DNA of 60,360 bases from Methanosphaera stadtmanae (lineage in GTDB: Archaea > Methanobacteriota > Methanobacteria > Methanobacteriales > Methanobacteriaceae), in the NCBI GenBank assembly GCA_015062825.1, contig SUTR01000004.1, forward strand, positions 1 to 60,360, in the 5' to 3' direction. The notes beneath the pieces were generated by a model. It saw only the letters and a program-made list of their open reading frames with translations. It had not been told where the DNA came from and searched no databases. The translations under genes and the position numbers were made by a program. The first letter of the stretch is position 1. The number at the start of each line of letters is the position of its first letter. This document shows, piece after piece, positions 12,604-16,806 of the stretch.

Positions 12604-12928
12604 TTTTTACATTTTCTTTTTTCAACTATTTTTTTCAATAATTTTTTAACATCACACCCCATAAAAAAATTAAATTACAGAATAATATTTTTAATCAGAT
12701 AAATTACAGATTAAAGATAAACTAATCATCATTTAAAAAATCAACCACATATAAAATTTTTATTTGAAATTAATAAATAGTAATTTAATTTATACATAAA
12801 TTTAAAGATTATGATACGAGAAATTATATTAACTTACCATTAATAATAAATATAATGAGTTATAGATAGATATATATTATAAATTAATAGAACAGACTAA
12901 AGAGAAAAAAAAATATAAAGGTGATCTT
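12604..12928. other. 325-base AT-rich gap: terminator tracts and promoter region
   Basis: The first 50 bases hold three T-runs (about 12604-12650) that fit archaeal oligo-T termination of nac. The rest is AT-rich, with a repeated AAATTACAGA. No open reading frame or stable hairpin was seen. The right end must contain the promoter of the RNase operon. Confidence 0.5.
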
Positions 12929-13969
12929 TTGAAAGTAATTGTTGATGGGTCAAATGTAGCATATTATGGACAACAACCAAATGAAGAAACGGGAAAGGTA
13001 ACTCCGAGTTTAAAAACTCTTAAAGTTGCAATAAGTACTCTTGAAAAATTAGGACATGAACCAATAGTACTAGCTGATGCTCCATTAAGACATGAAATTG
13101 ATGATAAAGATAGCTTTAATGAAATGATTAAGAACGAAGAAGTATTTCCAGTACCCGCAGGTACTATTGCAGATCATTACATACTTAATTTAGCATATGA
13201 AAAGGATGCTAAAATATTATCTAATGATTTCTTCAGAGATTATCAGGATGAATTTCAGGACATTCCTAGTAGAAGATTACCATACAGAGTTAAAAATGGT
13301 AGATTCCAGATTGGAAAGCCTGCACCACCTAAAAAAGTTAAAAATATTCTTCAAAAAATCTGTTCTAAATCATTAAATGAGTTTGAAAGACGGGGCTTTG
13401 ATGTTTACAAAGCTAAAAAGAATCGTAAATTCAGTGGATTAGCAGTGGCACAGGAAGCTATTAGTCGTGTAAACAATGAGGAAGAAAATGCTATTGATTC
13501 AAAGCTTGAAAATGTTTTTATGAAAATACCACTTCTTAATAAGATGGTAGGCTTTGTTGATGATGACATAGAGGATTGTGACTTCCTAATATTTGTACTT
13601 GTAAATCCAAAGGATTATAAGGAAGCAGTTCGTAATGCAGGTACTATTGCAGTTACAGTGAGAAATAAGTTAAACCTTGACCATTCTCCATTAGTTGCTG
13701 TACGTAACGACTTGTTTACAAGACCAGGCACATTTGAATTAAATATCATATACTCCGATGAAGTACTGGAGGAATCTCCATATAATTTAAATATTATAAT
13801 TAACGATTCTGACTACTCATTTATAAAACATAACTCAAGAAATATTGCAAGTACCCTTGCAAGTAGACTGGGTACTTGGAAGTTTCCTATTGTATCAGTA
13901 AAACCAAGTATGTTAATGGAAAAACCAGGACAATTCGAAATTTCTGTAGAACGTGGAGGTAAGAGATAA
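12929..13969 (+). CDS. NYN/PIN-like (Zc3h12a-type) ribonuclease with unknown C-terminal domain
   Basis: A 346-residue protein starting at TTG, with AGGTGAT just upstream. Residues 1-120 look like an NYN/PIN nuclease: 'VDGSNVAYYG' gives Asp6 and Asn9, Asp82 lies in 'ADHYIL', and Asp100/Asp104 in 'SNDFFRD'. This is the acidic constellation of Regnase-type RNases. The C-terminal half (about 190-346) is an unrecognised alpha/beta domain with possible internal duplication ('RNAGTIAVTVRNKL', 'RNIASTLASRLG'). The stop codon abuts the ATG of the next gene, so the two are translationally coupled. Target RNA is unknown. A link to the neighbour's possible nucleotide signal is inference. Confidence 0.72.
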   Translation: MKVIVDGSNVAYYGQQPNEETGKVTPSLKTLKVAISTLEKLGHEPIVLADAPLRHEIDDKDSFNEMIKNEEVFPVPAGTIADHYILNLAYEKDAKILSNDFFRDYQDEFQDIPSRRLPYRVKNGRFQIGKPAPPKKVKNILQKICSKSLNEFERRGFDVYKAKKNRKFSGLAVAQEAISRVNNEEENAIDSKLENVFMKIPLLNKMVGFVDDDIEDCDFLIFVLVNPKDYKEAVRNAGTIAVTVRNKLNLDHSPLVAVRNDLFTRPGTFELNIIYSDEVLEESPYNLNIIINDSDYSFIKHNSRNIASTLASRLGTWKFPIVSVKPSMLMEKPGQFEISVERGGKR

Positions 13970-15184
13970 ATGGCTTTTGATGGTATAACCAAAAGCCTAT
14001 TTAGCAGACTTCTTAATAAAAAGGTTATAAGTATTGGTACAAAATATTACGCTACTAATGAACTTGAAACAGAATACGTTGGTCTGATAAATCTTACAAA
14101 GACCATGCTAGTGGAAGTTAAACAGGCAAACATTAACAGTCAAAGTATCTTTGAAAATCTTGAACAGGAAATTGATCAAAGAGACCTTCCTAAGAATAGA
14201 AAGTTCATTGAGATGAAACCAGCGGACAATTCAGTTAATGAATATGCTCTTCTTAGTAATATTATCATGGGTAGTGACCGTTACTTATATATTGAATTAT
14301 TTAAACCTAATTATCTCATTGAAGATTTTGCTAATATGGTAATTGAAGCAAATGGTACTATTGTGGAAAAAAGTCATTCAGAACTTGTATCACATATGCC
14401 GTCCAAGAAGGACAGTATTAAAATTGCTATTGACATGATAAGTTTGGGTATGCAACAGAACTGTAATGTCAGGGCGTCTGTTGGAATGACTGGAGCAGCA
14501 TCTATTGAAAGAGCAATTGAAATGAATAATGAAATTGGAAACATATCAGGTGTTGCATTTACAAAGTTAGGTGGAGAATATGGAGTCATATTTGAAGAAA
14601 CACCTACTGATAAAAAAGTACATTTACCTGCAGTGGAAATTGATAACTTTATGTATATCGATGCTAAGGATTCAACAGGTTATATTGCAAAATATGGAAA
14701 GGATAAACTTATTGAAATAATGAATGACATCAATGAGTATATTGCAAATGATGGAAACGGAAAAATTGAAGGCTACAGGGTAGGTGGAGATGATTTAATC
14801 ATTAACTTCCCTAACAAGGAAATTGCACTTAAGACAGGACTTGACTGTGCATGGTATGCATTAAACAATGACTTGAATCTGCGTGTAGGAATTGGTAAAA
14901 GCAGACGTGAAGCTGGAGAAAATGCACATCTAACAGATTCAATAAAGATACATGATGATACGCCAGTAATAGTCTTTGACATAGCAAATGGTAAATATGC
15001 ATATTATATTCCAACAGCATTCACTCGTTCAACATTGGACTTTCTGGAAAATAAGAAGTTAACAATTATAGGAATTTTCATATTCGTATTTGTTTTAACG
15101 CTTATCGGATGGAATACACAGAATATATGGCTGGGATTTGTTGCAATAATTATTGCAATATTAATAGCCAGCATATCAAATTAA
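13970..15184 (+). CDS. Membrane-anchored GGDD palm-domain protein (GTP cyclohydrolase III / mCpol-like cyclase fold)
   Basis: A 404-residue protein. Residues 222-340 resemble the palm domain of archaeal GTP cyclohydrolase III, GGDEF cyclases and mCpol. Asp231/Asp234 lie in 'YIDAKDSTG', GGDD is at 272-275, and 'LRVGIGKSRREAGENA' starts at 304. Residues 150-212 ('RASVGMTGAASIERAI') look like part of a second, degenerate palm. Two hydrophobic segments (about 364-382 and 386-402) anchor it, placing the catalytic part in the cytoplasm. GTP cyclohydrolase III itself is shorter and soluble, so a nucleotide-cyclising or signalling role is possible. It abuts the RNase gene with no gap. Confidence 0.68.
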   Translation: MAFDGITKSLFSRLLNKKVISIGTKYYATNELETEYVGLINLTKTMLVEVKQANINSQSIFENLEQEIDQRDLPKNRKFIEMKPADNSVNEYALLSNIIMGSDRYLYIELFKPNYLIEDFANMVIEANGTIVEKSHSELVSHMPSKKDSIKIAIDMISLGMQQNCNVRASVGMTGAASIERAIEMNNEIGNISGVAFTKLGGEYGVIFEETPTDKKVHLPAVEIDNFMYIDAKDSTGYIAKYGKDKLIEIMNDINEYIANDGNGKIEGYRVGGDDLIINFPNKEIALKTGLDCAWYALNNDLNLRVGIGKSRREAGENAHLTDSIKIHDDTPVIVFDIANGKYAYYIPTAFTRSTLDFLENKKLTIIGIFIFVFVLTLIGWNTQNIWLGFVAIIIAILIASISN

Positions 15185-15200
15185 AGAAGGTTGTGTTAAA

Positions 15201-15512
15201 ATCAGGGCAGAACTTCAATCAAGAATATTTATAGTTGTAATAGTAGCTATTATTGCAATGATGGCAGGTTCTATTGCATCAATCTTCATACAATTTGATA
15301 ATCCATTTGAAGATAATGATTATAGAAGTAGTTACTCCAATAACAATAATTCAACATATAATGATTATTCTAACTACTCAAATTCTAGGTCAAACTCATC
15401 AAAATATTCATATAACAGGACTAATCAGTCAAATTACTATAATGATAATGAAAATTTATCAGTAAGTGATAGAATAAAGATTTTTATCAATGAAATATTT
15501 GGAGATAAATAA
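15201..15512 (+). CDS. Small membrane protein with Asn/Ser/Tyr-rich tail; probable ATC start
   Basis: A 103-residue protein that I do not recognise. Starting at ATG 15258 would cut through the only hydrophobic helix. Reading back to ATC 15201 gives 'RAELQSR' plus a full membrane segment (IFIVVIVAIIAMMAG), and AGAAGGT lies 9 bases upstream. No ATG, GTG or TTG exists in frame there. The outer part is low-complexity and rich in N, S and Y, ending in 'SVSDRIKIFINEIFGDK'. It is the third gene of the RNase/palm-protein unit, 16 bases after its neighbour. Confidence 0.5.
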   Translation: MRAELQSRIFIVVIVAIIAMMAGSIASIFIQFDNPFEDNDYRSSYSNNNNSTYNDYSNYSNSRSNSSKYSYNRTNQSNYYNDNENLSVSDRIKIFINEIFGDK

Positions 15513-15609: not shown

Positions 15610-16806
15610 ATTAAACAATTAGATAAGGGTTTATGTTCTTTAGAAGAAATAAAAACCTGTGGGTATAGGGAAGGAAAATATGGTGTTACCGTAATATATC
15701 ATAAAAATTCCACAGCTGCAGCAGTATATACAAAAAATAAAGTCTATGCAGCTCCAATAACAATTACAAGAAAACACATTGCCGATGGAAAAATATCTGC
15801 CATACTGGTAAATAGTGGAAATGCAAACTGTTATACCAAAGAAGAAGGAATAGAAAAAGGATTAGAACTTGCACAATTAGCTGCTGATAAACTGGAAATA
15901 CCCCTTGAAGAAGTTGCAGTTGCAAGTACAGGAGTAATTGGTCGTCAGATGCCAATGGATATACTAAAGCCAATTGCGGAAAAATCCATTGAAAAATTAG
16001 ACAATAGCCGACAATCAGCAACTGATGCAGCACGTGCTATTATGACAACTGACACTGTCCCTAAGGAGATTGCAGTTGAATCCCAATTAAATGATGGCAC
16101 AACATTTAAGATAGCAGGTATTTGTAAAGGTTCCGGTATGATTGCACCTAATATGGGAACCATGCTTGGATTTATTACAACCGATTTGAAGGCAGACAAG
16201 GACATGCTTCATGAATGTCTTTTGAAATCTGTTGAAAAGTCATTTAATATGGTTGTAGTTGATGGTGATGAAAGTACCAATGATACTGTAATTCTAATGA
16301 GTACAAACACACAAGTTGGAGATATTGATGAAAATTTCCAAGAAGCTCTTGACTATGTATGTATGAGCCTGGCCAAACAGATAGCAAAAGATGGTGAAGG
16401 TGCTGAAAAGTTCATGGAAGTAGAATGTTTAGGTGCAAATAGTTTAACTGATGCAATAAAGGTATCAAAAAGTGTAGTTTCAAGCAGTCTTGTAAAAACA
16501 GCTCTTAAAGGTGCTGATCCAAATTGGGGTCGTATAATATCTGCCGTAGGATACAGTGGAGTAGAATTTAATCCAGAAATAGTATCCATTAGTATAGCTT
16601 CTAAAACTGATGAAGTTATCATAGTAGACAAGGGCAATGTGACAACTTATGAAGATCCAAAGTTATTAGAAAAAGCTGAAGAGATAATGAAGGAAAAAGA
16701 AGTAATAATTAGAGTAAATTTACATGAGGGAGATTATAGCATAACAGCATATGGCTGTGATCTTACCTGTGAATATGTGCATATAAATGCTGATTATACA
16801 ACATAA
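15610..16806 (+). CDS. argJ: Arginine biosynthesis bifunctional protein ArgJ (ornithine acetyltransferase)
   Basis: ArgJ moves the acetyl group from N-acetylornithine to glutamate and can also make N-acetylglutamate. The protein self-cleaves before a Thr in the 'APNMGTMLGF' region, present here. Glycine-rich 'KGAGSGMIAPN'-type and 'DPNWGRIISAVGYSG' motifs are family hallmarks. The start is taken at ATT 15610, with GTGAT at 15601-15605 as binding site. GTG 15601 is only one base from AGGAG and so is poorly placed. The product is 398 residues, a normal length. It is followed after 18 bases by argB. Confidence 0.93.
   Translation: MKQLDKGLCSLEEIKTCGYREGKYGVTVIYHKNSTAAAVYTKNKVYAAPITITRKHIADGKISAILVNSGNANCYTKEEGIEKGLELAQLAADKLEIPLEEVAVASTGVIGRQMPMDILKPIAEKSIEKLDNSRQSATDAARAIMTTDTVPKEIAVESQLNDGTTFKIAGICKGSGMIAPNMGTMLGFITTDLKADKDMLHECLLKSVEKSFNMVVVDGDESTNDTVILMSTNTQVGDIDENFQEALDYVCMSLAKQIAKDGEGAEKFMEVECLGANSLTDAIKVSKSVVSSSLVKTALKGADPNWGRIISAVGYSGVEFNPEIVSISIASKTDEVIIVDKGNVTTYEDPKLLEKAEEIMKEKEVIIRVNLHEGDYSITAYGCDLTCEYVHINADYTT

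Follow-up and report, generated by a model that had tools for sequence, protein, structure and literature searches.

An RNase gene that runs directly into a gene for a palm-domain protein invites the question of whether the two form a signalling pair and, if they do, whether they act in defence or in housekeeping. Such an arrangement is found at positions 12929–15512 of a 60,360-nucleotide stretch of Methanosphaera stadtmanae DNA (the window), where the two genes are followed on the same, plus strand by a gene for a small membrane protein. An earlier note, made from the sequence alone, described the palm domain as most like GTP cyclohydrolase III and mCpol, considered the pair to be undescribed, and raised a link to defence, while allowing that conservation across the order would point to housekeeping instead. 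We find that the pair is a housekeeping fixture of its phylum that has already been listed, and that by sequence it belongs to a known superfamily, as a divergent and apparently catalytically intact branch whose arrangement is new.

An NYN ribonuclease with a duplicated C-terminal module

The first gene (12929–13969) encodes a 346-residue NYN/Zc3h12a-type ribonuclease and starts at a TTG preceded by a Shine-Dalgarno-like GGTGAT (12920–12925). It is the single PF11977 gene in the source genome, matching that family with 79.7 bits against a cut-off of 23 (E 2.6e-22), and its profile aligns with the solved structures of ZC3H12A, ZC3H12B, ZC3H12C and KHNYN (E 1e-6 to 2e-5) with the acidic residues in register. 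The catalytic domain occupies residues 1–132 (12929–13324), within which D6, N9, D82, D100 and E108 are invariant in 27 of 27 NYN-bearing orthologs from many genera; the first four are the set that the earlier note had singled out. The active site is thus intact as judged by sequence, the enzyme looks active, and cleavage of RNA is predicted. All 36 complete loci read, across genera, have TTG at the corresponding start, and this conserved start may keep expression low.

The remainder of the protein is a module consisting of a linker segment (residues 135–209; 13331–13555), which is retained in Methanopyrus, and two repeats, R1 (residues 210–279; 13556–13765) and R2 (residues 280–342; 13766–13954). 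R1 and R2 align with each other by hhalign (E 6e-12) and represent one unit, about 60 residues long, that has been duplicated in tandem. The RNase therefore shares with Regnase/Zc3h12a an NYN domain with an intact acidic site, but it lacks the zinc finger and instead carries the R1–R2 module, for which Pfam and PDB profile searches returned only chance matches and no relative. The predicted model of the RNase, with a pLDDT of 31 reflecting few diverse sequences, gives no fold for this module.

A membrane-anchored protein with tandem palms

The palm gene (13970–15184) encodes 404 residues, and its ATG immediately follows the TAA of the RNase gene in the source genome. The earlier note had both frames exactly right, and the absence of any gap between stop and start, which it also reported, indicates translational coupling in this genome. 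Profile searches gave the protein no Pfam or NCBIfam assignment. An AlphaFold2 model built from eight close sequences is of modest confidence (mean pLDDT 59.5) and shows two units with identical strand and helix order at residues 105–208 and 226–346, followed by hydrophobic helices at residues 363–383 (15056–15118) and 386–403 (15125–15178). These predicted helices would form a C-terminal membrane hairpin that is conserved among orthologs. The two units are duplicates (hhalign Prob 98, E 1e-13), and we assign residues 98–212 (14261–14605) to the first palm and 222–352 (14633–15025) to the second. The copies had been placed at 130–212 and 222–340; the tandem arrangement holds, although the first copy begins near residue 105 rather than 130.

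The two palms have diverged in what they conserve. D231 (codon at 14660–14662), a putative first metal aspartate, and GGDD (residues 272–275; 14783–14794) are retained in the second palm only, and both are invariant in 31 of 31 orthologs, extending into Methanopyrus at 21–23% identity; the GGDD and paired membrane helices of the earlier note are both borne out. The first palm is without GGDD and has an invariant set of its own (K146, G172, T174, A176, A177, E180, R181, F197, K199, G201 and E203).

Comparison of the second palm with PDB profiles gives Rv1900c (E 5.3e-6) and Ma1120 (E 2.3e-4), and comparison with anti-phage libraries gives PycC, the Pycsar cyclase, at best at E 5.3e-6 and Cas10 at best at E 0.0066. 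Foldseek searches with the model, which has the palm topology that had been expected, find GTP cyclohydrolase III (2qv6), Ma1120, Rv1900c, AC9 and Cas10. The TM-scores are low and the pLDDT is only 59.5, so the assignment of a palm fold, and with it homology to the class III cyclases (Rv1900c at E 5e-6, and fold matches to Ma1120, Rv1900c and AC9), leans on the sequence profile. The Pfam class III family PF00211 matches below its cut-off (best member E 0.13).

Class III cyclases such as Rv1900c and Ma1120 have in common with the second palm the profile match, both metal aspartates (D231 and D274, in 31 of 31 orthologs), and a basic residue where the base is read. Position 270 is R or K in all 31 orthologs, and R270 aligns with the residue before GD in class III cyclases that we take to be the one that reads the base; this puts it at the Lys position of the base-reading Lys/Asp pair, for which no Asp could be assigned. 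The tandem palms are also like the mammalian C1/C2 pseudo-heterodimer. The palm protein differs in having a shorter loop after GIG and a C-terminal membrane hairpin, and the Asn/Arg pair of class III transition-state catalysis is not recognised in the second palm, where N318 is not conserved. For the transition-state Arg, R181 in the first palm is no more than a candidate, and the match of the first palm to class III structures is too weak to place the other half of the active site.

GTP cyclohydrolase III (ArfA, MJ0145) likewise has two palm-like domains per chain, a GGD-type motif, and a structure (2qv6) among the fold matches, but the palm protein differs from it in its membrane anchor and in having no significant sequence relation to it. 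We rejected this identity when PF05165 was not matched and hhalign gave E values of 0.1 for the whole protein and 0.012 for the second palms. A separate gene in the genome encodes a true GTP cyclohydrolase III (ArfA; L067:1489–2244) and adjoins cofD- and cofE-like genes, a setting that fits a role in F420 synthesis. By sequence, the palm protein is closest to the class III nucleotidyl cyclases, including the adenylyl and Pycsar cyclases, and not, as had been supposed, to GTP cyclohydrolase III or mCpol.

A small membrane protein gene and near-cognate starts

The third gene (15201–15512) encodes a one-span membrane protein with an Asn/Ser-rich tail. An ATC is present at 15201 where relatives have ATG, and the ATG listed for this gene (15258) lies downstream. 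We conclude that the gene probably begins at the ATC, which would give a protein of about 103 residues with a complete transmembrane helix. The earlier note was right that this is a membrane protein, and the gene is conserved in most genera; its probable start is upstream of the one then listed. In this protein the N-terminus is short and charged, the helix is of the CGS/GxG type, and the polar outer tail carries N-glycosylation sequons; for about ten of the tested tails these are clearly more numerous than in composition shuffles. Sister species have the same gene with an ATG after GGAGG, and related genes occupy the equivalent place in most other genera, although none was seen behind the Methanopyrus palm gene. 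The gene is a conserved third member of the locus in most Methanobacteria.

Starts at this gene vary, with ATC in the window, ATT in three other loci (L014, L022 and L025), and ATA in one (L026), as against ATG in the sister species. A similar situation is seen at argJ, where the window has ATT (15610–15612) and 23 of the 23 other Methanosphaera loci compared have ATG; the GTG start listed for argJ (15601) overlaps the ribosome-binding site. Taken together, the argJ ATT and the ATC of the small membrane gene suggest use of near-cognate AUU/AUC starts in the source genome.

The pair is a fixed part of the chromosome

Within the family, 135 of 139 genomes have the palm gene, and within the phylum 148 of 152 do; some of the four phylum genomes that gave no match are incomplete drafts. 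It is single-copy in each genome, with one draft carrying it as two pieces on one contig. Outside the phylum it was found only in five Methanopyrus genomes, and about 71 other archaeal genomes gave no match at E 0.001. A PF11977 gene is present in M. jannaschii.

As the earlier note had supposed, the RNase gene is a constant neighbour: it is directly upstream of the palm gene in every locus read, and the two are adjacent wherever both searches matched. Their stop and start touch or overlap in most genera, but 126–258 bases separate them in a few, so that tight coupling is not universal. The gene order with the RNase is conserved from Methanothermus-like to Methanosphaera genomes, and in wider loci of sufficient length the pair is flanked by NAC on its upstream side and by argJ (or argB) on its downstream side, apart from a few exceptions. 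NAC is separated from the RNase gene by about 325 bases in the window (12604–12928) and by about 700–1500 in other genera. Searches of phages, plasmids and viral contigs found no relatives of the pair. The RNase–palm pair is a single-copy chromosomal fixture with a housekeeping distribution and is probably inherited vertically; the conservation across the order that the earlier note had named as the mark of housekeeping is what we observe, and its suggested link to defence is not upheld.

Contrary to the earlier note, the pair was already on record. Among the genes of pseudomurein-containing archaea, Lupo et al. 2025 (PMC11915815) list as cluster D the combination of OG0001213, a Zc3h12a-like RNase NYN, with OG0001214, a 'Nucleotide cyclase' with more than one transmembrane segment; they go no further than this listing and put the cluster aside as probably unrelated to pseudomurein synthesis. 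We matched cluster D to the present pair by its description, its range (Methanobacteriales and Methanopyrales), and the uniqueness of the PF11977 gene, accessions not being part of the comparison. The two agree, in that an NYN RNase adjoins a polytopic cyclase here; in Methanopyrus the partner lacks the NYN domain. The main text of that paper (PMC11915815) mentions neither the tandem palm nor the duplication in the C-terminal module, nor the NYN-less Methanopyrus form or the third gene, and in the literature library searched we found no other work on this pair. The pair also matches pseudomurein in its phyletic range, but this carries little weight between two closely related orders with many genes in common.

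Methanopyrus retains the module and not the RNase domain

In each of the five Methanopyrus genomes (L113 and L119–L122), the palm gene is preceded by a 241-residue gene corresponding to the C-terminal half of the RNase alone, with no NYN domain. No PF11977 gene was found anywhere in the Methanopyrus genomes searched. Frames of 319–320 residues there could be taken to hold an NYN relic, but the residues that these frames add lie ahead of the true start and come from an overlapping frame. It follows from this arrangement that what accompanies the palm protein throughout is the C-terminal module and not the RNase domain, and that the palm protein does not need the RNase. Either the NYN domain was lost in Methanopyrus or it was gained in Methanobacteria.

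A tentative mechanism and its alternatives

We tentatively favour, at somewhat under even chances, a membrane-bound housekeeping unit whose palm protein makes or binds a nucleotide that controls a partner through the C-terminal module. The two palms would pair within the chain as a pseudo-dimer, like those of mammalian adenylyl cyclase, with the second palm (D231 and GGDD) holding the metals and the first supplying the other face of the active site. The protein would make a cyclic or related nucleotide at the membrane, or at least bind one, perhaps with the small membrane protein as the input that controls it. The nucleotide, or the palm protein itself, would then act on the C-terminal module as partner or receptor. 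In Methanobacteria the module would switch or place the RNase as the output, altering RNA turnover, and in Methanopyrus an equivalent contact between palm protein and module would operate with no RNase domain. The case for catalysis lies in the total conservation of D231 and GGDD in the sequences, and the separate invariant set of the first palm is what we would expect if it formed the other face of one active site. No other class III cyclase, taken as a PF00211 protein above cut-off, was found in 20 related genomes; together with the report of cAMP in Methanothermobacter in 1986, this argues for the palm protein as an important cyclase. The cyclic-nucleotide receptor domain PF00027 is also absent from the 20 genomes, which counts against a classical cAMP circuit.

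A serious rival, although one that we consider doubtful, is that there is no messenger and that the palm protein, whether it simply binds a nucleotide or is a structural relic whose site has been preserved, holds the RNase at the membrane through the C-terminal module so as to localise RNA decay, much as RNase E and RNase Y are anchored there. The conserved hairpin, the unrecognised class III Asn/Arg pair, and the missing PF00027 receptor are all consistent with a tether of this kind. The Methanopyrus form can be read either way: it keeps the palm–module pair in the absence of the RNase, but its module has no RNase to tether. It is also difficult to see why a scaffold should keep D231 and GGDD invariant when overall identity falls to 21–23%, a degree of conservation beyond scaffold needs. 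That the palm protein instead serves nucleotide metabolism, as an enzyme of the GTP cyclohydrolase III type or another, with the RNase merely co-transcribed, appears improbable. The fold match to 2qv6 and the resemblance of the GGD-type and GIG-type motifs to those of GTP cyclohydrolase III would fit, but the genome has its true enzyme beside cofD, neither the Pfam GCH_III family nor hhalign gives a significant relation, the locus has arginine genes and otherwise no pathway genes, and the order with the RNase has been retained from Methanothermus-like to Methanosphaera genomes.

It is very improbable that the RNase is the effector of an anti-virus system resembling Panoptes (mCpol), Pycsar or type III CRISPR, even though RNases and membrane partners are typical effectors and the profile matches to PycC and Cas10, weak as they are, point in this direction. 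mCpol makes 2'3'-c-di-AMP in the Panoptes defence system, and what it has in common with the present protein is a palm fold, a motif of the GGDD class, and the placing of a nucleotide enzyme beside a partner gene. The present pair has no mCpol family match by padloc or Pfam, no 2TMbeta partner, and no CBASS context; its conserved context is NAC and argJ, and its distribution is that of a housekeeping gene. The similarity to PycC is not accompanied by any match to a PycTM or PycTIR effector among the three genes. For type III CRISPR, the Cas10 match is at best E 0.0066 and no Csm or Cmr genes were identified beside the palm gene. The RNase has no padloc match, no CBASS or cas genes were identified among the neighbours, and no relatives were found in the phages, plasmids and viral contigs searched. 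In view of this context and of a near-universal, single-copy, syntenically fixed distribution, we reject defence of the mCpol, CRISPR or Pycsar kind.

Implications

A bolder form of the signalling model, which we regard as unlikely, is that these methanogens make cyclic nucleotides with the palm protein, which would be their long-missing synthase and a new branch beside class III, internally duplicated and membrane-anchored, and that R1–R2 is a new receptor through which RNA decay would be controlled, possibly in response to the envelope by way of the small membrane protein. A 2021 study concluded that most archaea probably make cAMP with a still unknown class of enzyme (PMC8646023). A near-universal, single-copy, membrane-bound protein of the cyclase superfamily in such an archaeon, with an RNase as its fixed neighbour, is a directly testable candidate for this open question in archaeal signalling. 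If the signalling model is true, nucleotide signalling would be linked to RNA turnover in abundant gut methanogens.
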